From contig JAEOTO010000006.1 in NCBI GenBank assembly GCA_016839805.1, positions 62,001 to 126,000 on the forward strand: 64,000 bases of DNA, written 5' to 3'. Under the pieces are notes generated by a model. The model was not told the origin of the DNA, did not search any database, and saw only the letters and a list, made by a program, of their open reading frames with translations. Positions within the stretch are counted from its first letter, which is position 1; each line of letters begins with the position of its first letter. This stretch comes from Candidatus Hermodarchaeota archaeon. Its GTDB lineage: Archaea; Asgardarchaeota; Hermodarchaeia; Hermodarchaeales; Hermodarchaeaceae. Shown in pieces: positions 22,510 to 42,028 of this stretch. The position numbers and the translations under genes are program-made.

Positions 22510-22672
22510 ACTGATATCCTCGCCTCACAAATCAGAAACAAGTATTAAAAAAACTACCTCAAAGAGAACCTTATACACCCCTACTACACCAAGCAATCCG
22601 CCAAAAAGCTTATCAGCGCCCTCCCATAGTCAACAATAGCAGAACCAACGCATCCTGGGATGTGAGCGGGCA

Positions 22673-23563
22673 ATTATCCATAACGCAATACTTTTCACCA
22701 TCAGCCCTCGCACAGACGAAGTCGGACTCCAAGCCAACGTCATCTTCCGCAAACAATACTGGCGCGTCGCCCTCAACGACGACATGATCCGCGAATTCCT
22801 CCGCGCCTACAAAGAATTCATGAGCCACGTCCAAAGTACCGACATCCCCACCCTCCCCATCCACATCCAAGGCGCCAAATACATCTTCACCAACATCGAA
22901 GACCTCCTCCTCGTCTTCATCAGCCACATGCAAGACGAAGACAACCGCGTCGCCGAAAAAGTCAAAACCGCCCTCCGCATGCTCGTCGGCAAATACGGCA
23001 CCGAACACATCAAAGAACTCGGCAACAACGACACCGCCGAACCCATCGAAGACCTCATTGACAACTACATCATGAGCAAACTCAAAGTCAGCCTCGTCGG
23101 CGAAGGCGGCGTCGGCAAAACCACCCTCCTCCGCCTCCTCAAAGGCAGCGCCCCACCCACCGAATACGTCCCCACCATCGCTCTCAGCATCGAACAAATC
23201 GAAGCCACCCGCTACGGAACCTACTCAATAATTTTATGGGACTTCGCAGGACAAGAGCGGTTTCGCCGGCTCTGGACCATTTATTTCAGGGGCTCAGACA
23301 TCGTATTCATCATCACCGACTCCACCCTCAACAACGTCATTGCCACAAAAGAAATCCTAGATGTCATCCGAAAAGACGCACCGGGTGTCCCTGTCTGGGC
23401 GATTGCCAACAAACAAGACCTCGAAGGCGCCCTCAGCCCCGAACTCGTCGAACGCATCCTCGGCATCCCCGCCTTCGGCATGGTCGCCATCGACCAAACC
23501 CGCAAAGAAGAAATGCTCCAAATTTTGCTCGATGCCGTCGATCGCTACATCGGGACGGAATAA
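22673..23563 (+). CDS. Longin-like domain fused to Arf/Ras-like small GTPase (paralogue 1), apparent AUU start
   Basis: A 296-residue protein. Residues 1-100 match the longin-like N-terminus of the paralogue at 27870; residues 135-296 are the GTPase: G1 GEGGVGKTT, switch-2 WDFAGQERFR (DxxGQ), G4 ANKQDL. The Trp-x-x-Phe/Leu after G3 and the ANKQDL are most like Arf/SR-beta. No ATG fits the N-terminus: the paralogue begins ATG ATT CAC AAC and this gene has ATT ATC CAT AAC at 22673, seven bases after GGATGTGA, a near-perfect ribosome-binding site. The first internal ATG (22784) would cut the longin domain in half. The gene uses mostly C-ended codons except at 23216-23400. Confidence 0.8.
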   Translation: MIHNAILFTISPRTDEVGLQANVIFRKQYWRVALNDDMIREFLRAYKEFMSHVQSTDIPTLPIHIQGAKYIFTNIEDLLLVFISHMQDEDNRVAEKVKTALRMLVGKYGTEHIKELGNNDTAEPIEDLIDNYIMSKLKVSLVGEGGVGKTTLLRLLKGSAPPTEYVPTIALSIEQIEATRYGTYSIILWDFAGQERFRRLWTIYFRGSDIVFIITDSTLNNVIATKEILDVIRKDAPGVPVWAIANKQDLEGALSPELVERILGIPAFGMVAIDQTRKEEMLQILLDAVDRYIGTE

Positions 23564-25452: not shown

Positions 25453-26118
25453 ATGGTGAGTAGAATTATTGGGGAGACTCTTTTGTCTATTGGAAATGTT
25501 GATGGGCTTATCCAAGAGTGGAGAAGAGATAAAAAGCGGAGGTCTAGGAGGGGAACGTTTGCTCAGGATCCGAAGGGCTACCAGCAGTTCGTTGCTACAG
25601 TAGCGGGTCAATATCTTCCAAAGATCAGAGCTTTCCTTACGTCGGATTACCATGATCGAAAAGCGGCTCTTAAGACGTGGAGAGAGCTTATCGCTGAGTT
25701 TGGGGAGGATATGAGGATGTTGGATGCATTTGATCCAACTGGTAACACTCAGTTCTTCGCTGCCATTGTCACTGCTCAGGGAGCCCTGCGAGATAAGGAG
25801 GCTAAGAAGGCATTTGAGCAATCGAAAAAAGAGCCTAGTGACGCCTTCGGGAATCCTGAATTCATCAGCAGTATAGCAGCTTCAATCGACACAATTCTCG
25901 ATCAGACGTTCCATGCGATGCGGGGGATGATTGGCAAGGATTTACGGCGCTCATTGATTAGAAAAGCTTCCCAGAAGCTGCATAATACCTTAGCACAAGG
26001 ATTGGTTGAAGCCATTAATGATCTAACTGCTCTTCTTCTCCCCTCGTTGGTCATTGTAGAAATGGAATTAGAGAAATTCCACATTAAGAAACTGAAGGTT
26101 CCTGAACGGGGTCAGTGA
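25453..26118 (+). CDS. Helical hypothetical protein (221 aa)
   Basis: I do not recognise this protein. It is mostly helical and basic-acidic balanced, with a conserved-looking core 'FHAMRGMIGKDLRRSLIRKASQKL' near residues 155-180 and a hydrophobic segment 'ALLLPSLVIVEMELE' near 195-210 that could be a buried helix rather than a membrane span. The start ATG has GGA immediately before it and GGTGAG just after, so an ATT 12 bases further is a possible alternative start. No operon partner. Confidence 0.58.
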   Translation: MVSRIIGETLLSIGNVDGLIQEWRRDKKRRSRRGTFAQDPKGYQQFVATVAGQYLPKIRAFLTSDYHDRKAALKTWRELIAEFGEDMRMLDAFDPTGNTQFFAAIVTAQGALRDKEAKKAFEQSKKEPSDAFGNPEFISSIAASIDTILDQTFHAMRGMIGKDLRRSLIRKASQKLHNTLAQGLVEAINDLTALLLPSLVIVEMELEKFHIKKLKVPERGQ

Positions 26119-26648: not shown

Positions 26649-26828
26649 GATTCTTCTTCAAGATAATCAGCCAAAAAGTGACATTTTCGGATTCAGTATC
26701 TCGGAATGAATGCACCTAATCCGCTATAAGTGCAAAAACCTTTTCTGCGCCGTTTCTTAACGTTGGTTGAAGCCAAGACATTGAACTTGATTTGGTCTAC
26801 ACAATTCCAGGCTAGAAGGTGAGTTATC

Positions 26829-27848
26829 ATCCCTCGGGGGCTCGTATTAAGTCATTGGGATACTAAGGAAGGATTAGAAATTTTAGCGAAATTTCCGACC
26901 TCCCTGGACTTCGATGTTGAACATCTATCCATGATGTTTTACAGCTGTGCCCTAGAAGAGCCTGGAACCGTTTTTCAAGTATTTCCAACTAAAGATGTGA
27001 CAGAAAGGGCAGCAATCACCTGTACACGGACCATCCGAGATGGAGTCGAAGACGACTTCTGTATCACCGCGTTGCTCACTTCCGAAGAAGAGGGATCTGC
27101 TTATGAAGCAATCCTCAACTCTACTCTAAAACGAATTTTAAATGCGAAAAGTGATTCTCCCAAACGTTCACGCCGCTATCGACAAATTCTCTCAGATAGC
27201 TATCGCAAAATTGAACGGCGGGGTGGTTCACGTGACCGCTCATTGTGTCCCTACAAATATGAACGACCAGTCAAGGGTGATAAACTCACCTCCTATTGCC
27301 GTGTCGTGAAAAAACAATGCTATCTCACCATTTACGAAATGTCGGGTTATCCCCAATGTCCCCGGTATATTCGGCGTGAACGGCAAATCCAACTCGCTAA
27401 TGCCCGACGATTAGTACGTGCTGGCATCAACCGTATTCTCGAAGAATACGATCAAGAACGACAAAAGTCTAAAAAGCATAAACCAGGAGCCTGGAGCGAA
27501 CCGGTTCACGCCATCCTCGAGAGGCTATTCGCCATTCTCTCAGTTTCTCCTGAAACTGAAAACTACTCCCACCGTATTGTTGAACATGTTGGCAAAGAAG
27601 GGTTTTTCCAGGGGCATCCTCGTCCAATTATAGCCGCATCAATTGCTTATTATAGTGCCAAACAGACCGGTGATTCCTTACCCGAAAACGATATAATCGA
27701 ACTTGTGGGATGTTCCCGTACTTCCCTACGTCGAAATTACAGGGAACTCCGAAACCTCCTCGGTTCGGACGATAAAAAACTCCCGCAGCATAAACGACGT
27801 CAGCGTCGCACATCAAGACGAGAAAAAGCCGCTACTCGTGCAGAATAA
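26829..27848 (+). CDS. PRG-domain protein with cysteine cluster and TFIIB-like cyclin fold; apparent AUC start
   Basis: A 339-residue protein. Residues 1-105 are the same domain as the start of the protein at 29518: IPRGLVLSHWDTKEGLEI and MPRGLSVCRWDDKVGLRI align over about 100 residues. Residues 140-185 hold four Cys in CPYKYERPVKG, YCRVVKKQC and YPQCPRYI, a probable metal site. Residues 225-310 (AASIAYYSAKQTGDSLPENDI, then GCSRTSLRRNYREL) resemble the second cyclin repeat of TFIIB, and a very basic tail follows. The start is ATC at 26829, five bases after AAGGTGAG; the first ATG (26931) would remove a third of the shared domain. A transcription role is inference. Confidence 0.75.
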   Translation: MPRGLVLSHWDTKEGLEILAKFPTSLDFDVEHLSMMFYSCALEEPGTVFQVFPTKDVTERAAITCTRTIRDGVEDDFCITALLTSEEEGSAYEAILNSTLKRILNAKSDSPKRSRRYRQILSDSYRKIERRGGSRDRSLCPYKYERPVKGDKLTSYCRVVKKQCYLTIYEMSGYPQCPRYIRRERQIQLANARRLVRAGINRILEEYDQERQKSKKHKPGAWSEPVHAILERLFAILSVSPETENYSHRIVEHVGKEGFFQGHPRPIIAASIAYYSAKQTGDSLPENDIIELVGCSRTSLRRNYRELRNLLGSDDKKLPQHKRRQRRTSRREKAATRAE

Positions 27849-27869
27849 AACACAGGAGAATTAACTCGC

Positions 27870-28739
27870 ATGATTCACAACGTCTTCATCATGACCCGCG
27901 AAGGACGCATGGCCTTCCACCGTCAATACTGGTCCGTCGATATCACCACCGAAGATCGACAAGAATTCGTCGCCACTTACAAACACTTCGAAAAAGACCT
28001 CGGAGCCACCGTCGACCTCCCCATACATGTTAAAAACAACAAATTCATCTACACCGATGCTGGCACTCACCTCCTCCTCGTTTTCGCCGTTGACATCTCC
28101 GACGAAGACGAAAAAATCCGAGAACTCCTCAAAAAAACTCGCGAACTCCTCATCGACAAATACGGTCACGAAATCGACGCCTACATCCAAAAACCCGCTC
28201 CCCTAGGCCAAGCCTTCCAAGGCTTCGAAAAAGAACTCGACAGCGTCATCGTCACCATGCTCAAAATCTGCCTCCTTGGTCAAGGTGGCGTCGGCAAATC
28301 CACCATGCTCAAACTACTAACCGCCGACAGCATCCCCGGCGAATACTACCCCACCATCGCCGTCGACATCGAAACCCTCCAAGGCGTGCGCTTTGGCCCC
28401 TACGAACTCGCCGTCTGGGACTTCGCAGGACAAGACCGCTTCCGCTCCCTCTGGAACTACTACCTCCGGAACGCAGACGCCGTCTTACTCGTCACCGATT
28501 CCACCTTGAAAAATGTCTTAGAAACCCGTGATATTTTAGAAATCGTCCGCAAGAATGCACCCGCCTGCATTGCCTGGGCCATTGCCAACAAACAAGACCT
28601 CCCCGGCGCCCTCGCCCCCAAACTCGTCCAACGCATCCTCGGCGTCCAAGCCTACGGCCTCGTCGCCATCGACCCTCGCTATCGCGAAACCCTCTACAAA
28701 ATCATCCTCGGCGCCGTCGCTGAAGCCACCACCGATTAA
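27870..28739 (+). CDS. Longin-like domain fused to Arf/Ras-like small GTPase (paralogue 2)
   Basis: A 289-residue protein in two parts. Residues 1-100 have the longin pattern seen in adaptor small chains and TRAPP: IHNVFIMTREGRMAFHRQYW, then NNKFIYTDAGTHLLLVFAVD and a helix. Residues 130-289 are the GTPase, with GQGGVGKST, WDFAGQDRFRSLWNYYLRNA and ANKQDLPGAL, closest to Arf/SR-beta. The start ATG follows AGGAGA by 11 bases. Almost all codons end in C. It sits 22 bases after the PRG/TFB-like gene and before a second PRG-domain gene, so the GTPase and both PRG proteins probably work together. Longin-GTPase fusions fit a membrane-linked switch. Confidence 0.88.
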   Translation: MIHNVFIMTREGRMAFHRQYWSVDITTEDRQEFVATYKHFEKDLGATVDLPIHVKNNKFIYTDAGTHLLLVFAVDISDEDEKIRELLKKTRELLIDKYGHEIDAYIQKPAPLGQAFQGFEKELDSVIVTMLKICLLGQGGVGKSTMLKLLTADSIPGEYYPTIAVDIETLQGVRFGPYELAVWDFAGQDRFRSLWNYYLRNADAVLLVTDSTLKNVLETRDILEIVRKNAPACIAWAIANKQDLPGALAPKLVQRILGVQAYGLVAIDPRYRETLYKIILGAVAEATTD

Positions 28740-28747
28740 ACAGTGAA

Positions 28748-29281
28748 TTATCCCTTTTTTAGCTGGTTTCGTTTTAATTGGATACCTACCATAGGAATTA
28801 TGGTGATAGTTCCCATTAAAAGAAATACGGCTGCAGATAAAACATATGGAGTTAGTAACATCAGGAGGGCTCCGGTCACAAAGACCATTATAATGATCAG
28901 CATGGCTGCGATCCAAAACCCCGGGAGTTCATGCTTGGACACATACTGCATTCGCCATAACGCCCAAACCAGATGAACCACGGCAAACATGACAAACCAC
29001 CCTAGAATATAATCCAACCACGGAATCACATCCATCGGTAACCATCCATACGCAACCCATGAATACGGGCTCAACAAAATAAAAGCTCCAGATACAAGAG
29101 CCCCTCCAATCCATGTAGCTAGAGCCAACGGCACAAACAACCATTTACTCCACCTTTCCACCTCCCTCCCGCCCAACGTCGGTCGAAGTAACCAATTAAC
29201 CCACAAAGTAAACCCCCAACTCCCAAGTAAAATACAAACAAATGGAAGAAAGAACGTTAAACCCGGAATCACATTCAACAT
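28748..29281 (-). CDS. Membrane protein with four or five spans
   Basis: A 177-residue hydrophobic protein: helices near residues 5-28, 48-68, 82-105, 120-145 and 148-168. Trp and Tyr cluster at the membrane borders. The C-terminal tail is basic (LKRNQLKKG), so it faces the cytoplasm. It lies on the opposite strand between the longin-GTPase and the second PRG-domain gene, ending eight bases after the GTPase. No motif points to function, but its place inside the GTPase locus suggests a membrane partner. Confidence 0.65.
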   Translation of the reverse strand: MLNVIPGLTFFLPFVCILLGSWGFTLWVNWLLRPTLGGREVERWSKWLFVPLALATWIGGALVSGAFILLSPYSWVAYGWLPMDVIPWLDYILGWFVMFAVVHLVWALWRMQYVSKHELPGFWIAAMLIIIMVFVTGALLMLLTPYVLSAAVFLLMGTITIIPMVGIQLKRNQLKKG

Positions 29282-29517
29282 CTCCTGAAACCAATTTCTA
29301 TTCCTTCATTCAAATATCCGTTGGTGTCGACAATTCAACCTAGTAAAACAGTTCTTATCCCGTTTAGATAAAGAAAGCAGCAACGAATATACACGAAACG
29401 GCAACGACGACAAACAAGTTAAATACGGGAAATCCGATAGTCAAAACGAAGTGCCAATAGGTCACTTTAAGTAATAAAGCTACAGGAAACTTTTAACCAA
29501 ACGGGAGGCTAAAAGAA

Positions 29518-31095
29518 TTGCCACGTGGTTTATCAGTCTGCAGGTGGGACGATAAAGTTGGCCTGCGTATTGTGGGTGTGTACCCGCGGAACCTAGAGGT
29601 TTCTGAGGATGATATGTTACGTGTTTTTACGGCGCACGCTATGGGTAAGCCGGAAGCTGGTTTTCTCACTATGACTCTTGAAGGAACGAACCTGGCGGTA
29701 GCGTCTTTTTACACTGGCATTCTCCGTGGGCGTGATCAGTTTTGTATTATGATGTTTATGGATTTGGATGAAGAACCGCGGAGTTTTGAAGAGGGGTTGA
29801 CGCTTGCGTCGAGTGAGATTGTGGAGAATATTGGTGAGCCGGAGTTTGTTGAGTATCTGGGTGAAGTGTTTGAGAAGCTGAAGCGGATGGTGGAGCTGTC
29901 CGTGGAGCAGCGGCTTGCTAAGGTGTTTGTGGATCAGGAAACGCGGTTGTTGATGCATAAGTTGGCTCGTGGTGGTATTTCCGCAGAAGAGCTCCGGGAA
30001 TGGCTTGAGTTACAGACAGGGAAGCATTACCCCGATTTAGGGCTAGTAACTCTGCCTTTGTTACGAAGTGGACTAGTGGAAGAGGATTGGATTAACGCGG
30101 TGTCAGACAACTGTGTCTTTCTAGTAAACGATTTGTTGGGTGCACGGTTTCCGCCAGAGCAGGTGATTAAACTTGCTAAAGGTGGCGGGTTAAACAAGGA
30201 GCAATACAACGAATTAGAAACGCGTGTGAAGAGTTTCTTTGAGGGTTATCAGTGGACTGAAGAAGATACGATTATTATTGGTCAGTTGCTGCTAGATCCG
30301 GATATTTATGACGTGACGAAGACGTTACGGCGGAAAATTGCGCATAAATCCGAGTTGGCGGGAGTGGTCGAAAAGGAAGCATCATTGGATAATGTGCTTC
30401 GACGTCTAGAGCAGGTACAAGTGATTACGAAATTTGGTGAAAATGCTGTTGACGTAGCTGCTAACGACGATCCGTTGATTGTGTTAATGGCGGATGTACA
30501 CTTTGAGTCTTTCTTCCCGGAATTTCTAGTATTGCGTATTCAGGAACGGTTAGAGGCTAAGGATATTCATCCGGATATTGCGAAGCGGCATCTAGAGTTG
30601 CTTAGTGAAATGTATATGCGTATGCGAGAGAAGATGAAAGAACGCAAGAAGCGAAAGAAGGAAGAGGAAGAAGAGGAACTTCCTGAAATCGAAGCTGAAA
30701 TGGTTCACCCGCCCGAAGTCGCTGAGGAGGAACCTCTAGAAACCGCTGAAATGCCTCCACTTGACGAAAAAGAAGCGAAACGCATTCGAAAAGAGGAGGA
30801 GAAAGCACGTAAGGAAGAGGAAAAACGTCTAAAAGTCGAGGAGAAGAAGCGGAAGAAGGAAGAGGCGCAAAAGAAGAAGGAAGAGGAGAAGCAGAAGAAA
30901 GAGGAAGAGAAGCGTCGCAAGGAAGAGGAGAAGCAGAAGAAGGAAGAGGCGCAAAAGAAGAAGGAAGAGGAGAAGCAGAAGAAAGAGGAAGAGAAGCGTC
31001 GCAAGGAAGAGGAGAAGCAGAAGAAAAAGGAAAAAGAGAAGAAGCAAAAAGAGGAAAAAAAGAAAGAAAAGGAACCTGAAGCTGAGGCTACCTAA
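29518..31095 (+). CDS. PRG-domain protein with helical middle and long Lys/Glu coiled-coil tail
   Basis: A 525-residue protein. Residues 1-105 are the PRG domain (MPRGLSVCRWDDKVGLRI to MMFMDLDEEPRSFEEGL), shared with the protein at 26829. Residues 110-360 are helical, with winged-helix-like units; residues 365-525 are nearly all Lys, Glu and Arg, a long coiled coil or single alpha-helix. The tail contains a perfect 84-base tandem duplication. Start TTG at 29518, nine bases after GGGAGG, with TATA-like CTTTAAG 50 bases upstream. It follows the longin-GTPase paralogue 2 and probably belongs to its system; function unknown. Confidence 0.75.
   Translation: MPRGLSVCRWDDKVGLRIVGVYPRNLEVSEDDMLRVFTAHAMGKPEAGFLTMTLEGTNLAVASFYTGILRGRDQFCIMMFMDLDEEPRSFEEGLTLASSEIVENIGEPEFVEYLGEVFEKLKRMVELSVEQRLAKVFVDQETRLLMHKLARGGISAEELREWLELQTGKHYPDLGLVTLPLLRSGLVEEDWINAVSDNCVFLVNDLLGARFPPEQVIKLAKGGGLNKEQYNELETRVKSFFEGYQWTEEDTIIIGQLLLDPDIYDVTKTLRRKIAHKSELAGVVEKEASLDNVLRRLEQVQVITKFGENAVDVAANDDPLIVLMADVHFESFFPEFLVLRIQERLEAKDIHPDIAKRHLELLSEMYMRMREKMKERKKRKKEEEEEELPEIEAEMVHPPEVAEEEPLETAEMPPLDEKEAKRIRKEEEKARKEEEKRLKVEEKKRKKEEAQKKKEEEKQKKEEEKRRKEEEKQKKEEAQKKKEEEKQKKEEEKRRKEEEKQKKKEKEKKQKEEKKKEKEPEAEAT
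30852..31025 (+). repeat. 84-bp perfect tandem duplication inside the Lys/Glu-rich tail
   Basis: 30853-30936 and 30937-31020 are identical (84 bases, 28 codons), the copy continuing a few bases beyond. The unit encodes the pattern KKEEAQKKKEEEK..., so the frame is kept and the coiled coil simply grows by 28 residues. A perfect copy suggests a recent event or ongoing slippage. Confidence 0.9.
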
Positions 31096-33258: not shown

Positions 33259-33407
33259 TATTCTGGAAACCCTCGTTACAAGATTTATCAAGGATGTACT
33301 AATACACACTTTTAAAACTTGTTTGCAAGTTCTCACTTTTCAAGGCGGGATTAAATTGACCCAAGACCAGCAGACTGAAAAACAACGAATACGGTCATAT
33401 CCTTAGA

Positions 33408-34727
33408 ATGCGCCCGCTGCCACTCACCCGGAAAATTCGCATCTTTCCCACACCCCAACAAGAATACGTTCTGTGGGCCCTATCCGAGAAATGCCGTCTT
33501 CTCTACAACTTTGCCTTGGTTGAACGACAGCAATATTGGGAAGCCAACCGGACGAAACCACCCGAGGCGCGCACTTATATAACCTACATAAAGCAGCAAA
33601 ATGACCTTCCAACCATCAAAGAACAGTATCCCGAATACGCCTGGGTTTATTCCAAGGTTCTCCAGATGGTCTTACGACGCTTGGATGCCGACTACAAGTC
33701 CTTCTATGCCCGCTGGAACAATGGTGATCACCACGCACGTCCACCCCGTTTCAAAGGCAAGCAGTATTTCACCACCCTTTGCTACAACCAATCGGGATTT
33801 ACCATTGACATAGAAAATAAGCGGATCCGCCTCTCCCACAATCACCCCTCCGGTGTGGAACTCCTATTTGACCTACCATGGCTAACAAAAATTACAGGCA
33901 AGGTCAAACAGGTAGAACTCTTTCAGGATCGGCGACGTAGGTGGTTCGTAGCTATCACTACTGACGAGACGGTACCTGCCTATGTGGACAACGGGTTATA
34001 CCAAGCAATCGATTTGGGCATCGTTAATCTGGTCACCGCCGTTAACCTCCACGGCAAGTTCGTGCAGATTCGGAATCGTCGCCCTGACCGCTATTGGCGG
34101 TCAAAGATTCGGGAGGTGCAATCGAAACGCGACCATTGTAAACAATTTAGCAAAAAATGGTACTGGTATACTGTCAAATTACAAAAGATGCAACGCAAAC
34201 TGACCAATCAGTTGCGCGACTTCCAACACAAAATCTCTAAGTGCATCGTGGAAAATACCCGGGCCAATACACTTGTTCTCGGTGCTCTGGACATCAAAGC
34301 AATGGCGCGAAAGAAAAAAATCATAGCTAGTCCACGAGTAATTAAGGCCTATAGGACTTTGAACCATTCGCTGCAGAATACAGGGTTCTTGGGGCGCTTC
34401 GCCGAATTCTTGACCTACAAGGCACAGAAAGTAGGGAAAAGAGTGATAAGAATTGACGAAGCGTACACCACGAAAACTTGTTGTGTCTGTGGTAAGATCC
34501 GAGATCGGCAATTGTCTGAGCGCCGTATTCAGTGCGATTGTGGAACCCCTCTTGACCGTGACCAGAACGCGGCGGTCAACATCATGGTACGGTTCCTATC
34601 GCAGCAACCCCCTGTGAACGGGGAGCCATTACAAACTTTCTTGAATGGCTTGCATCGACACACAGCCTTACCCCACCTCCACCGGGTAACGGACTCGATG
34701 GAAGTTCCTGCATTAATGCAGGGATAG
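33408..34727 (+). CDS. tnpB: TnpB (IS200/IS605 family), RuvC-II acidic residue not in place
   Basis: A 439-residue TnpB. N-terminal helical lobe, then RuvC-I IDLGIVNLVTAV (D202), zinc site CCVCG and CDCG (C358, C361, C376, C378), and RuvC-III DRDQNAA (D385). The RuvC-II strand reads LVLGALDIKAM: the usual E or D two positions before Leu is G292/A293, while D295 is nearby. TnpB uses an omega-RNA from the element's 3' end to cut DNA. With the usual acidic residue displaced the nuclease may be rearranged or inactive. No tnpA is present. The element's right end is a palindrome 34707-34722 followed by GTTCAC at 34727-34732. Confidence 0.88.
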   Translation: MRPLPLTRKIRIFPTPQQEYVLWALSEKCRLLYNFALVERQQYWEANRTKPPEARTYITYIKQQNDLPTIKEQYPEYAWVYSKVLQMVLRRLDADYKSFYARWNNGDHHARPPRFKGKQYFTTLCYNQSGFTIDIENKRIRLSHNHPSGVELLFDLPWLTKITGKVKQVELFQDRRRRWFVAITTDETVPAYVDNGLYQAIDLGIVNLVTAVNLHGKFVQIRNRRPDRYWRSKIREVQSKRDHCKQFSKKWYWYTVKLQKMQRKLTNQLRDFQHKISKCIVENTRANTLVLGALDIKAMARKKKIIASPRVIKAYRTLNHSLQNTGFLGRFAEFLTYKAQKVGKRVIRIDEAYTTKTCCVCGKIRDRQLSERRIQCDCGTPLDRDQNAAVNIMVRFLSQQPPVNGEPLQTFLNGLHRHTALPHLHRVTDSMEVPALMQG

Positions 34728-36530: not shown

Positions 36531-39500
36531 TTATTTTCGAAGTAAAATCTCTTCTGAAGCAGAAATCCATCGGGGACCAAGAGTTTGATTGAAAAGCGCT
36601 ATATAGCTTGGTTGATCACTAACTACAGCCACGGTTTCTCCTTGATTACCGTAGGTTGGGGCAATTAGGACCTCCTCACCATCTCGCGATCCTCCATAAA
36701 ATTCCATGTTTGGATTATTCCAGATGCGGATATTACCTTGTTGTAAAAGTTTACGTGCATTAGTTCGTTGTTTTTCACCATCAAGAGTAGTAATAACATG
36801 GATGCGGGTTTGAGGTTGGACTTTACTCAACTCCACAACTGGAACTTCGTCAAAGGACGGATAAACTAAGGTGATAGTATTACTAACACGGCGAAACATA
36901 TCCAGGAGATGATTTTGAATTCCCTCACAGGATACAATCCGCCATGTCCGCTCTGCCTCGGAAGGTTCAAGGCTTAAGAGGGTCTCCCATAAACCAGTTA
37001 GGATGTTTTCAGTACTAGTAGCTTGGTTTCGAAGGCGATCCAAAATTGGTTCAGTTTTTTGTGAAAAAAGCTGTAAAGTGTTGATAGATGTAGTTTCAGC
37101 TGTTTTGGCTCGGGTAGTAATTTCCTTAGCAAGGGTTTGGTATTCCGTTTTCAGTGTTTGACGCTCTTTACTTAACGTTTGACTAATACGTCTTCCCGTC
37201 TGCTGAGTCTGAGTTACTAAACTTTCTTTGGCTGTGTCAATAATCTGTTTCGTGGTGGCGATGAGAGTTTCATTCTTTTGTTGAACATCGATTGAAGCTG
37301 ATTCTTCAAATGTGTGCATGGTCTCTCTGATATGGCGTAGGCTATCCTGGATAGCACGGATTAACCTTGTCTTGGTTAAATCAATGGTTTGTTTAAAGCT
37401 TTGGAGAGTTTTTTCAATTTCTTGACCGAATCCAGTCCTGGCTTTAAGATTATCTTCTTCAATTACTTGGCTAGTCTCAGAGAGGATTCTATTAAGCTCT
37501 GTTTGTGAATCGGTGAACATGGAAGTCAGCTTCTGAATGAGTTGCTCCGACGTTGTATTCACCTTGTCACTAATACTAGACAGGTTGGTTTGAATCTGCG
37601 TAGCAAATGTACCTGTTTTGGAAGTTAGACTCGTTTGCAGGTTTTGGTTAATTTCTGTACTCTTAAATTCAGTTTGGTCTAGAATTTCGTCTAAGGCTGT
37701 ATCTATTTGTGTATTCGATAGATCTAACGCTTCTTTTCCTTCCTCTGCCTCCTGAGTCAGTGTTGAAAGTAATTTAGTTTGAGAGGTGTTGATGTATTCA
37801 ACAAAGTTTTGAAAAGTTGTGGTGACCTCCTTGCTTAGTGAGTTTTGCATTTCGTCAATGGCGGTTAGTTTTTGTACCCTATTTACCTCAATTGCCTGTT
37901 GCAGTTCAGTATCAATAGTTGCACCTGTAAGCTTGACTTTTTCCACCAGTTTCGAAGCAACAGTTTGCAGCTGGACTATCTCTTCCTGTAAATTAGTGAT
38001 GTAGTTCTCAGTTTCTTCTGATAAGGCATTAGTATATGTATCAAGGTGCTTGTCAATTGCTGCCCGTTGTTCATCGATTTTTTCAGCACAAGTTAGTCCA
38101 ATTTCCTCAATGATATTCTGGGCTTTCGGGATCTGGTTTTGAGTGAATTCTTCTAGTTTTGTTTGTATGCCCGTCAGCGTATCGATAACATTGGTACTCT
38201 GTTGAAGAATCATGTCATGAATGCTCTTTCTAAGATTTTCTACACGTTCTTCTTGTTCTTCAAGTTCTCTTTGGAGACTTTCAACAAAACTATCTGCCGT
38301 TTCACGAATGGCGGCGAGATTGGCAAGAGTAAGAGATTCAATCTTACCAGTCATGGTTTCCATTTTCTGGCTTGATGTATTTTTTTGAGCCGTAATGTCG
38401 TTACCTAAAACCTCAAGAAGCGTTTGGGTCTCTTGGAGCTGTGCTAGGCAATCCTCCTGCATTTCATTAATTCCCTGGATGATTTGTTCATTAAACCCGG
38501 TTTTTTCTCGATCAAAGGCCTGGGCAGTTGCTGTAAGAAGATTGTTCGCATCATCACTGTAATTAGTAAGGCTGGTCGTTACATTCACGGTTGCTTGATC
38601 AACTGCCGTTCCACTGGCTGTACTAAGGGCATTTAGGTTGCTTACAACCGTATTAGTATATTCATCGATAATTTGGGTAAGAGGAAGCCAGTGTTTGTCT
38701 ACGAGCGTCTTAGCTTCATTATCGTAAATGTCAATAGTCTCGTTAAGCTTGGTTTTGAATTTATCAAGGAGAGGTTTGATTTCAGGGGCTTCAGTAGTTA
38801 GGTATTCTTGGAGTGTCCTCTGTAATTGGTTTTGTAGGCGGTTCTCAAGAATCGTTTGAAAAGCACTTTGGGCTTGGTTTTCTAGTTCTTCACGGTTAAT
38901 TATCAAAGTATCTTGGTAAGTTTTTATCGCTGAACTAGTAGCGTTTTTCAGAATCTTAGAAAGAGCAGTTTCCAAGCCTTTAGCATAATTTACTTTGAGG
39001 AGCTTCTTGTGGAAAGATTGTGTTTCAGTATTGATACTCTCTCCATATGCTTTCAATTTATTCCCGAGTAAAGATTGGAACTTCATTAAGGACGATTCAA
39101 AATTATTGACCTGACTGTTAAGGTTTTGTGCCAAAGTTTTGGAGAGTAACTCTTGAGGAAATTGTGTGAGCTTATCTTGAGTTGATTTAAGAATGGCTGT
39201 AATTTGTTTATCACGTAGTGTTTGATTTTTCAACTGCTTGCCGAATTCTATCAAAATTGTTTCTAATTCTTGTCTTATTTTAGTTCGTACAACTTTTGAC
39301 TCTCTTTTTAGAGTTGTTGGGAGTTTTAGTATTTGGCTGGTTGTTGCCTGAAAGAGTTCGTCAATCTGGCTTTCTCGATTGGTCTGCCGAGTCAGCCTTG
39401 CCTTACAGTTACGAAAAATAGCATTAATCTGCGTTTTGAATTCCTTCTCAAACTGATCTTTAATTTGAATAGTCTGTTGATTTTGTATTTTGGTAACTTC

Positions 39501-41909
39501 TTTCCGGGTCTGTGATAACGCCGAGTCTGACTGTTTCTGAAATTGAGTATTTTGTGTTGTTATGAAATCTTGAATTGTTGCTGTGATGGCATTCAGCTGT
39601 GCCCCCAAGGCTTTGGTCAGTGAAGTATTGATAATTTCAAGCTGTTTGGGTGTAACATGTTCATTGAGAGTGGATTTCGCGGTAGTCATTGCCTGAGTTT
39701 CGAGGATTGCCTGATTTTCATCAATTGTGTTTTGATACTTGTTTAATGCAGCCAGAGCATATTCAGGTATTACCTCTTGAAGTGAGATTGCTAAACCAGT
39801 AATTATTTTCTGATCTCTTTTTATTAGTTGGGTCGAGTGTGACCTAAGTGCTCGATTAACTGCGTTATTCCGCTTTTTCTGAATTTTTTTGCTTGACAGC
39901 GAATAACCTGTGGTTGCTGTATTGATCTTGATTGCCTGCTCTTCTCGCAGTCGATCCGCTGTGTTTTCTATGCCTTCAGAATATTGTTTAATGATGTTTT
40001 GAAGTTGAGTGAATTCCTGGCGTAATTCCGAGCTTGTTTCCTTAGTCATCTTCTTCAAAGCGGCTTGGAATGCCTGTAATTGTCTCTCAATATCCTTCTG
40101 ACGCTTAGTAGCTTTCGCGATATTTTCTTGTGCAGCTTGTTTTACTGAGTCTCTAGTACGATTAATCCGCTCTTCAGCATATTGACCGATTTGCTCTTCC
40201 GTAGTTGCTAACGTATTTAGCACAATACCAATTTGTTGTTTAAGCAGATTTTCGGTCCGTTTACAAAAGGTACGTGTTTGTTCTTCTTGGAGGGCGATTT
40301 TGGATTGGAAATCAGAAAGAAAGGCGTTTGCAGTGTTTAGGATAGTAGTTAATCGTCTTTTCAGACGTGTTCCAACTTGGTTGGCTATGGACTCAAAATT
40401 TCCAGGCAGGGTGGTCTTTTGTTTTTTGAGATCTTTAATGAGCGTTTGGCTGAGAGTATTTAATTCGAGCAGTTGGGCGAGATATGTATCCCGCATTTCA
40501 ACTCCCAGTCCCTCACTGGCGGCTTCGAGAAGGCGCTCGTGATCGGTTTTAACTTGTTCTGTAAGTGTGTTCAAATCGGATTGAATTTTAGAAAACTGTG
40601 AAAAAGGTAAAGCCGTCGGAGGCCACTGTGAGATGGTACTTTCAACCTCTTTTTGTAACCGCTTATATTCCTGGCTACCTGTTTCAAGGGACTTTTGTAG
40701 ATCTTGGATGAGGGTTTCGGTAATTTGGGTTAAATTTTCACGTGCAACTTTTATTATTGAATCCATATCAGCTGCAATTTTGTCACTGTTCTTTTGCTGT
40801 CGCCGGGTCTCTTTCTGAAGGAGCTTCTCAATGCGAGATAACATTTCATCTATGGATTGCGTTCGTTGTGTCCAGGTTTCACGAATTTGTGATTTGGCGT
40901 CCTTATTCTGTTTAAAGAGAATTTGTTTGATTTCCTTTTGAAGTGTGTTGATATCCTCTTGCGTTTCTTGAGTGAAAGTTTCGAGGTTGGTGTTAATGGT
41001 GGCGGTTGTCTCTTCGGCAATTTCTGAGATTCCTTCTTTTTCTGATGTAATTTCAGTTGTTAGGGTTTTAACACTTGAATCGATGTTTCGCTTTTGTAAA
41101 GAATTCGCCTCTTCAAGATGTGTTTTAATCTGCTGTGTAAGTGTGTCTGACTGATCAAGTAAACGACCGGCAATTGTTGTTAACCATTGTTCAGCTTCTT
41201 CTTCATGAGCCTCTAGCCCCTTGTTTACATCTGCTAAGGCAAGATTCTGAGTCTCATCTATTTGGCTAACTCCTTCTGCAATAGACTTTTTGAGTGATTG
41301 TTGAAGAGTAGTGATCGACTTAGAAAATCCATCTACAGTTGAAGTGGATAGGTTAGTCAAAGATTTCTGCAAATTCTCAGCGACGTTATTCAATACAATA
41401 TTCGTCGCCATGGCTGCCTCACTTAGGGCTATTCCCTGCCGCTCTAGATTGTCTACAGCCGTTTTAGTCTGTCTAGTCATTGATTGTAGTTCATGATGAA
41501 TTTTATCCATTGTCTTATTCTGAAGTTTTTGCAGTTCCTTCCAAGAGGCTTGAGTCTCTTTTGTGAAGGCTTTTACTTCAGCAGATAATTCCCTGTAGGG
41601 TGCATAGGCCTGGTATCGAGTTACAACACCGGGTAAGGGTTTCACGAGCTCTCTTTTCTTCAGCATTTCAAGGACAGTCTGAACCTTTACAAAAGTAACA
41701 CCTGAATACCGACTAATTTCATCAGGAGTTAATTGCCTCATAACCAGCAAAGCGATATAAACACGACTCTGAGACTCGGTGAGCTTAAACCGAGCCCGAA
41801 CTGCTTTGAATAGATCTGGGGAAATCTCAAAAGCCGTAGGACCTTGGAGAGGGGCAAATTCTCCGCTTTTAGAAGTGGGGGGTTTGGAATCATCTTTTTG
41901 TGGTGTCAT
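36531..41909 (-). CDS. Giant coiled-coil protein with TrmB-like winged helix and PLD-like C-terminal domain
   Basis: One open frame of 1792 residues. Residues 30-110 form a TrmB-type winged helix (FKLTESQSRVYIALLVMRQL, then LVKPLPGVVTRYQAYAP). Residues 110-1640 are almost unbroken coiled coil rich in Gln, Glu, Lys, Thr and Leu. Residues 1650-1792 (TWRIVSCEGIQNHLLDMF, then NTITLVYPSF and TRIHVITTLDG) look like the PLD-like effector domain that follows the winged helix in TrmB regulators. The family is usually about 250-350 residues, so a coiled coil of about 1500 has been placed between its two halves. It might link DNA to a distant site; function is inferred. Confidence 0.8.
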   Translation of the reverse strand: MTPQKDDSKPPTSKSGEFAPLQGPTAFEISPDLFKAVRARFKLTESQSRVYIALLVMRQLTPDEISRYSGVTFVKVQTVLEMLKKRELVKPLPGVVTRYQAYAPYRELSAEVKAFTKETQASWKELQKLQNKTMDKIHHELQSMTRQTKTAVDNLERQGIALSEAAMATNIVLNNVAENLQKSLTNLSTSTVDGFSKSITTLQQSLKKSIAEGVSQIDETQNLALADVNKGLEAHEEEAEQWLTTIAGRLLDQSDTLTQQIKTHLEEANSLQKRNIDSSVKTLTTEITSEKEGISEIAEETTATINTNLETFTQETQEDINTLQKEIKQILFKQNKDAKSQIRETWTQRTQSIDEMLSRIEKLLQKETRRQQKNSDKIAADMDSIIKVARENLTQITETLIQDLQKSLETGSQEYKRLQKEVESTISQWPPTALPFSQFSKIQSDLNTLTEQVKTDHERLLEAASEGLGVEMRDTYLAQLLELNTLSQTLIKDLKKQKTTLPGNFESIANQVGTRLKRRLTTILNTANAFLSDFQSKIALQEEQTRTFCKRTENLLKQQIGIVLNTLATTEEQIGQYAEERINRTRDSVKQAAQENIAKATKRQKDIERQLQAFQAALKKMTKETSSELRQEFTQLQNIIKQYSEGIENTADRLREEQAIKINTATTGYSLSSKKIQKKRNNAVNRALRSHSTQLIKRDQKIITGLAISLQEVIPEYALAALNKYQNTIDENQAILETQAMTTAKSTLNEHVTPKQLEIINTSLTKALGAQLNAITATIQDFITTQNTQFQKQSDSALSQTRKEVTKIQNQQTIQIKDQFEKEFKTQINAIFRNCKARLTRQTNRESQIDELFQATTSQILKLPTTLKRESKVVRTKIRQELETILIEFGKQLKNQTLRDKQITAILKSTQDKLTQFPQELLSKTLAQNLNSQVNNFESSLMKFQSLLGNKLKAYGESINTETQSFHKKLLKVNYAKGLETALSKILKNATSSAIKTYQDTLIINREELENQAQSAFQTILENRLQNQLQRTLQEYLTTEAPEIKPLLDKFKTKLNETIDIYDNEAKTLVDKHWLPLTQIIDEYTNTVVSNLNALSTASGTAVDQATVNVTTSLTNYSDDANNLLTATAQAFDREKTGFNEQIIQGINEMQEDCLAQLQETQTLLEVLGNDITAQKNTSSQKMETMTGKIESLTLANLAAIRETADSFVESLQRELEEQEERVENLRKSIHDMILQQSTNVIDTLTGIQTKLEEFTQNQIPKAQNIIEEIGLTCAEKIDEQRAAIDKHLDTYTNALSEETENYITNLQEEIVQLQTVASKLVEKVKLTGATIDTELQQAIEVNRVQKLTAIDEMQNSLSKEVTTTFQNFVEYINTSQTKLLSTLTQEAEEGKEALDLSNTQIDTALDEILDQTEFKSTEINQNLQTSLTSKTGTFATQIQTNLSSISDKVNTTSEQLIQKLTSMFTDSQTELNRILSETSQVIEEDNLKARTGFGQEIEKTLQSFKQTIDLTKTRLIRAIQDSLRHIRETMHTFEESASIDVQQKNETLIATTKQIIDTAKESLVTQTQQTGRRISQTLSKERQTLKTEYQTLAKEITTRAKTAETTSINTLQLFSQKTEPILDRLRNQATSTENILTGLWETLLSLEPSEAERTWRIVSCEGIQNHLLDMFRRVSNTITLVYPSFDEVPVVELSKVQPQTRIHVITTLDGEKQRTNARKLLQQGNIRIWNNPNMEFYGGSRDGEEVLIAPTYGNQGETVAVVSDQPSYIALFNQTLGPRWISASEEILLRK

Positions 41910-42028
41910 ATCTCTTCACCAATCCAATCTCACGGTTACTTACGTAGGATTATTTTGGACTTGACTGCTGCGACGCTAATGTTTCTCTTCACCAGCTATA
42001 AGGGTGCCGCGTCGAAAGTCAAAGGAAT

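Follow-up and report, generated by a model that had tools for sequence, protein, structure and literature searches.

We analyzed a 64,000-nucleotide stretch of DNA (the window) from the 2.3-Mb Asgard genome of a Candidatus Hermodarchaeota archaeon (contig JAEOTO010000006.1, positions 62,001 to 126,000, here labelled C26), and in it a plus-strand gene cassette that combines two small GTPases with two proteins sharing an N-terminal domain. We refer to the latter proteins as P0001 (26829-27848, +, 339 residues) and P0002 (29518-31095, +, 525 residues, start TTG), and to the GTPases as P0003 (27870-28739, +) and P0004 (22640-23563, +). Genomes are labelled G000 and onward and families f1 and onward, f1 being the window's own family. 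Asgard archaea encode dozens of small GTPases. Longin domains regulate small GTPases in human cells, and the longin fold class typically binds them.

The initial annotation of this DNA claimed that P0001 and P0002 have a common N-terminal domain and saw in them a possible undescribed GTPase system. The common domain was confirmed: residues 1-101 aligned with 28% identity in a single-sequence search (E about 1e-6), and profile-profile comparison with hhalign extended over 138 columns (E 8.4e-15, probability 98.4). AlphaFold models of both proteins showed the topology b-b-a-b-b-b-a-a, which is the longin order, and similarity to the solved longins 8yqg, Lst4 and NPRL2. The two N-termini are thus related in predicted structure as well, and the common domain is predicted by these models to be a longin domain. 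Pfam gave no longin match for P0001 or P0002, and a profile of the shared domain found no longin in the PDB. Because sequence searches match no known longin family, the assignment rests on the predicted fold; since the longin superfamily is itself defined by fold, the missing profile match lowers confidence but does not exclude membership. The shared domain does not represent a new fold: the models give longin topology, and an "NPRL2-like longin domain" class has already been listed for Asgards (PMC9834061). The longin residues PRGL, WD and GL are invariant in P0001 orthologs. The domain also stands alone as proteins of 126-136 residues, and stand-alone copies of 126-127 residues adjoin longin-GTPase genes at L123:6248-6625, L143:7688-8068 and L156:7801-8181, a minimal form of the pairing described below.

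The model of P0001, built from an alignment of 26 sequences, had a pLDDT (predicted local distance difference test) of 80 overall. Its longin domain (residues 1-131, 26829-27221, +; AlphaFold, Foldseek and hhalign) was modelled mostly at 82-93, and Foldseek ranked longins first (Lokiarchaeal 8yqg_B, template modelling score by target 0.61), followed by archaeal TFB. A four-cysteine region follows (27222-27383, +; pLDDT about 55-75), in which C140, C157, C164 and C177 are invariant in the alignments of 8 orthologs, with the spacing C-x16-C-x6-C-x12-C between the longin domain and a cyclin repeat. This region probably binds metal. No relative of it was found in the PDB, and its identification as a known zinc finger was rejected after the search gave no match. 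The C-terminal part corresponds to the second cyclin repeat of TFIIB/TFB (residues 223-311, 27495-27761, +) and contains the helix-turn-helix (HTH) recognition-helix segment GCSRTSLRRNYREL. It superposed on 1d3u_B, an archaeal TFB on DNA carrying the B recognition element (BRE) and TATA box, with a root-mean-square deviation (rmsd) of 1.2 A over 86 columns in Foldseek. The NCBIfam TFIIB profile NF001658 aligned over its positions 224-306 of 312 (E 0.009), PF00382 matched 4 of the 8 P0001 orthologs (best E 0.0022), and the C-terminal 90 residues aligned to cyclin repeat 2 of the TFBs encoded in the same genome, recognition helix included. From the model and these matches, P0001 is predicted to carry a TFIIB-derived cyclin repeat 2 with a BRE-type HTH, a putative DNA-binding domain.

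The Cys cluster and the cyclin fold named in the initial annotation are therefore both present in P0001, but the TFIIB-like fold is not complete and consists of one repeat, the second. The proposed link of this protein toward transcription agrees with the presence of the TFIIB-derived domain in the comparison with 1d3u_B. P0001 resembles archaeal TFB in its second cyclin repeat and HTH; in contrast to TFB, it has a longin domain and a different Cys cluster, whose spacing is not that of a CxxC zinc ribbon, instead of the zinc ribbon, B-reader and first cyclin repeat. Since these three elements are missing, P0001 would be a promoter-binding regulator and not a general initiation factor. All 8 P0001 orthologs belong to a single family, and no full-length copy outside this family was found across 228 genomes of the phylum. 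The P0001 profile also listed, via the cyclin repeats, a divergent complete TFB of the sister genus (L137:4278-5234, L138:3987-4985 and L139:4124-5062). At G000:C23:51205-51842 the TFIIB repeats are split over two short frames of 96 and 101 residues, possibly a broken TFB gene, and the same genome has several intact TFB genes besides.

For P0002, the AlphaFold model was built from an alignment of 57 sequences and had a mean pLDDT of 90.8. Its longin domain (residues 1-125, 29518-29892, +) matched in Foldseek the longins of NPRL2/3, Npr2, Lst4, the FLCN complex and 8yqg. Two winged helices follow on the same strand, the first (residues 140-211, 29935-30150) with the secondary structure HHH-EEE in the model and the second (residues 261-332, 30298-30513) supported by the model and by matches of ArsR/TrmB/TFIIE-alpha-type HTH profiles to family members. 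The Lys/Glu-rich coiled-coil tail (30640-31095, +) is genus-specific, being long only in genus g1, short and K/E-rich in g2, and absent in most other aligned members. The helices and the long coiled coil noted initially in P0002 are both there, but the helices form two winged-helix domains and the coiled coil is confined to one genus. A role as coiled-coil scaffold was rejected for this reason; what is conserved is the longin domain with the two winged helices. The P0002 profile matched 162 of the 228 genomes of the phylum, often with several copies each, and gave a single match, exactly at threshold, in 165 genomes outside it. By these profile matches, the P0002 core belongs to an Asgard-wide family.

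P0003 consists of a putative longin domain (about residues 1-110) and an Arf-like GTPase domain (about residues 130-283), the latter matching PF00025 Arf (E 5e-20) and Arf1 in the PDB (E 3e-18) and showing the motifs G1 GQGGVGKS, G3 DFAGQ and G4 NKQD. P0004, a second longin-Arf-like GTPase, is 43% identical to it. Both have intact G motifs (G1-G4, NKxD) and the catalytic Gln, and both are Arf-like by sequence; Gtr1_RagA was a weak match to the longin-GTPases. The N-terminal 110 residues of the GTPases gave weak matches to the longins of AP-3/AP-4 sigma, AP-2 mu and VAMP7, which is consistent with their being longin domains. No sequence similarity was found between the GTPases' own longin and the PRG longin of P0001 and P0002. 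The same architecture, longin plus Arf/Rag-like GTPase, is known from the longin-GTPase fusions of strain MK-D1 (PMC10933270).

These features bear on whether P0002 is a true NPRL2/NPRL3 homolog, a forerunner of GATOR1-Rag that acts on a Rag/Arf-like GTPase, either as a GTPase-activating protein (GAP) or as an inhibitory platform. The best Foldseek matches of P0002 were NPRL3, NPRL2 and Npr2, with longin and winged helices in the same order, and the Asgard clusters of orthologous genes (asCOG) list the "NPRL2-like longin domain" (PMC9834061). Against this, hhalign of P0002 with human NPRL2 (query identical to PDB 6ces_N) returned a probability of 0.2 and PF06218 did not match these genes, so homology to NPRL2 is not supported by sequence. 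The whole-chain template modelling scores to the NPRL matches were 0.20-0.26 with an rmsd of 18-22, which makes the fold match a domain-level one only. The GTPase is Arf-like with a weak Gtr1_RagA match, and the partner's longin has no invariant Arg. We regard NPRL2/NPRL3 homology as unlikely. The asCOG proteins of Lokiarchaea with this label, which PMC9834061 gives only as the name of a category in the legend to a figure, are very probably the same as the P0002 family or overlap with it; since the term exists, the family has probably already been catalogued.

The order P0001-P0003-P0002 was present in six genomes (G000, G001, G002, G005, G006 and G007). Contig ends cut the set in G003 and G004, where the remaining pieces agree with the order, which thus recurs in other genomes wherever contigs allow. 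In the sister genus (G005-G007) the genes run GTPase (P0004 type)-P0001-GTPase (P0003 type)-P0002 on one strand, and with a P0004-type gene directly upstream of the P0001 ortholog there, P0004 belongs to the cassette. The initial annotation placed a longin-GTPase and a membrane protein between P0001 and P0002. Both are present, the GTPase being P0003 and the second an open reading frame (ORF) for a protein with four transmembrane (TM) segments at 28748-29281 (-), between P0003 and P0002. No four-TM gene was found between GTPase and P0002 in five relatives (G001, G002, G005, G006 and G007). As it is missing in relatives whose contigs span the interval, we take it to be an insertion that lies outside the cassette, and it was rejected as a component. 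A 221-residue helical protein encoded near the cassette (25453-26118, +) is conserved in the genus.

P0001 and P0004 also share an unusual type of start codon. The P0001 gene begins with a Shine-Dalgarno (SD)-like AAGGTGA and an ATC start (26816-26831, +) that are conserved in orthologs: the first codon is ATC in 7 orthologs and ATT in 1 (8/8 non-canonical), AGGTG(A/T) lies six bases ahead of the start in 8/8, and an in-frame TGA occurs within the SD just upstream in 7/8. There is no ATG, GTG or TTG at this position, and the first canonical start lies 15 to 35 codons inward across orthologs. Codons 2-33 form a conserved stretch that varies mostly at third positions. The ATG at 26931 was rejected as the P0001 start, as it would cut 34 conserved residues and the third-position pattern shows the upstream part to be coding. 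Four P0004 orthologs start with ATT and one with ACG; in the window the gene probably starts at an ATT near 22673 rather than at the ATG of 22784 (start site about 22655-22675). The comparison took in about two dozen conserved genes of the region, and P0001 and P0004 were the only ones with non-canonical starts; P0003 and P0002 start with ATG or TTG, save for one contig-edge ATT case of P0002. Such weak starts may point to translation that is low or regulated.

This evidence also bears on the view that P0001 arose by local duplication and has no role connected with the GTPase, being a TFB fragment with a borrowed longin as dimerization tag. Its restriction to one family would fit such a duplicate, as would the indirect nature of the case for its interaction with the GTPase. 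Yet wherever the contig permits the check, P0001 adjoins the GTPase gene, its longin residues PRGL, WD and GL are invariant, and it has its rare start-codon type in common with P0004. A duplicate of this kind seems very improbable to us.

Linkage between P0002-type genes and GTPase genes was measured in 21 genomes outside the window's family, with longin-winged-HTH (longin-wHTH) genes identified by profile and only the P0003 sequence used to locate GTPases. The results showed 22 of 63 longin-wHTH genes within 2 kb of a P0003-like GTPase gene against 0.42 expected, a value calculated for uniformly placed genes and independent genomes; counting once per family leaves 11 families. The linked pairs were spread over 15 of the 21 genomes. 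In five families (f5, f7, f11, f12 and f29) the GTPase and longin-wHTH frames abut or overlap on the same strand. The association of P0002 with a longin-GTPase that was noted in the window is therefore phylum-wide. The neighboring GTPase was the genome's best P0003 match in 9 of the 21 genomes, which shows that unlinked longin-GTPases also exist.

A second recurrent neighbor was found at longin-wHTH loci outside the window's family. At 32 of 50 loci, chosen for diversity and long contigs and not at random, a same-strand ORF of >800 residues with a TM segment lay within two genes. Most of these giant ORFs encode long proteins with a hydrophobic N-terminus, an ectodomain and a single TM segment that is followed by 50-220 residues up to the C-terminus, typically about 80, and their ectodomains gave weak immunoglobulin, FG-GAP and carboxypeptidase-regulatory-like matches (L127:4369-8751, L117:10190-17302 and L124:2090-10123 are examples of such single-pass surface-type proteins). 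The giant-protein and longin-wHTH genes often share a few bases at their ends. In two genomes, G091 and G159, the longin-wHTH unit is fused to the giant protein, behind its TM segment, and large open frames of the same kind were among the listed matches in further genomes. For the Hermodarchaeal P0002 copy, no giant TM neighbor was found among the window ORFs.

The fusions weigh on a further alternative, in which the P0002 family would be primarily DNA-binding regulators with tandem wHTH and longin dimerization, the GTPase being an output gene or otherwise linked. The ArsR/TrmB/TFIIE-type wHTH profiles match members of the P0002 family, and the paralog P0001 is also of DNA type. But some P0002 relatives follow the TM segment of a giant surface protein in a single chain, which would anchor them to the membrane, and winged helices serve protein contacts in eukaryotic longin complexes; both points count against this alternative. 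We consider it improbable.

Taken together, we favor, with modest confidence, a cognate longin-Arf-like GTPase/longin-partner module to which the Hermodarchaeota add a longin-TFB output to DNA. The phylum-wide core would consist of the P0003-type GTPase and its cognate longin/tandem winged-helix partner of the P0002 type. We strongly infer that these two are physical partners, and we infer the dependence on GTPase state, the DNA binding and the direction of the signal given here. The partner longin may form a homodimer or pair with the longin that the GTPase itself carries, and the small GTPase would sit on the dimer. The partner would then read or set the nucleotide state, as in the GATOR1, FLCN, Mon1-Ccz1 and TRAPP longin complexes, which act as GAP, guanine nucleotide exchange factor or effector; the shared domain may thus be a sensor of GTPase state. 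In several Asgard families the partner is joined to a giant single-pass surface protein at its cytosolic tail, which makes a signal from outside or from the membrane the probable input there. Hermodarchaeota would have added a second GTPase and P0001 to the cassette, and P0001 would most likely dock on the same GTPase/longin platform and carry the switch to DNA. A more specific version, a GTPase-gated TFB-derived switch in which the nucleotide state, read by the longin, directly controls promoter binding and the core is a receptor-coupled small-GTPase pathway, is possible but doubtful.

Several observations weigh against the module. Gene neighborhood is not the same as binding, and the structure models are single monomers of two proteins, P0001 and P0002. 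The longin domain of the GTPase is weakly matched. No arginine was invariant in the aligned longin domains of the partner, and an NPRL2-type GAP acting through an Arg finger is accordingly not evident. P0001 is limited to 8 genomes of one family, and three genomes (G010, G067 and G196) have no P0003-like GTPase near a longin-wHTH gene.

The proposed module resembles GATOR1 NPRL2/NPRL3 (yeast Npr2/Npr3) and FLCN-FNIP/Lst4 on Rag/Gtr in its N-terminal longin and small-GTPase association, and NPRL2/3 also in the winged helices after the longin. It differs from these complexes in that no sequence homology is detectable, the cassette GTPase is Arf-like with its own longin, and there is no conserved Arg-finger candidate. 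Myxococcus MglA-MglB likewise pairs a small GTPase with a regulator of the roadblock/longin class, but MglB is a roadblock protein, from another branch of the fold class. Asgard small-GTPase regulators are hard to match from genome layout (PMC10933270): GTPase and longin genes of MK-D1 reportedly do not, as a rule, share operons, and partners could not be assigned for that reason, whereas here one specific GTPase/longin pair is linked across the phylum. No published description of the GTPase pairing, the surface-protein coupling or the longin-TFB chimera was found in the literature covered, to which subscription papers and bioRxiv did not belong. Here gene position matches a single GTPase family to a single longin-partner family throughout the phylum, which yields defined pairs for purification and testing. 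An input is suggested by the giant surface-protein fusions, and an output to DNA by the longin-TFB chimera. The origin of eukaryotic longin-based GTPase control (GATOR1, FLCN, Mon1-Ccz1) becomes testable. If the more specific version above were true, its core of surface receptor, longin/winged-helix adaptor and GTPase would predate eukaryotic longin-Rag/Arf regulation or run parallel to it.

Two further genes were noted in the window. A TnpB/IS605-like ORF (33360-34727, +) lies between an OB-fold gene and a DNA ligase gene and is probably a recent insertion, as it is absent there in the relatives L034 and L035. The ORF at 36534-41915 (-) encodes a 1794-residue protein whose N-terminus is HTH-like and which has a coiled coil of about 1500 residues and a different C-terminal domain; it was rejected as a giant surface partner, having no TM segment and an HTH-like start followed by coiled coil. 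Its homologs adjoin the DNA ligase gene across the family, and the sister-genus copies are much more diverged.

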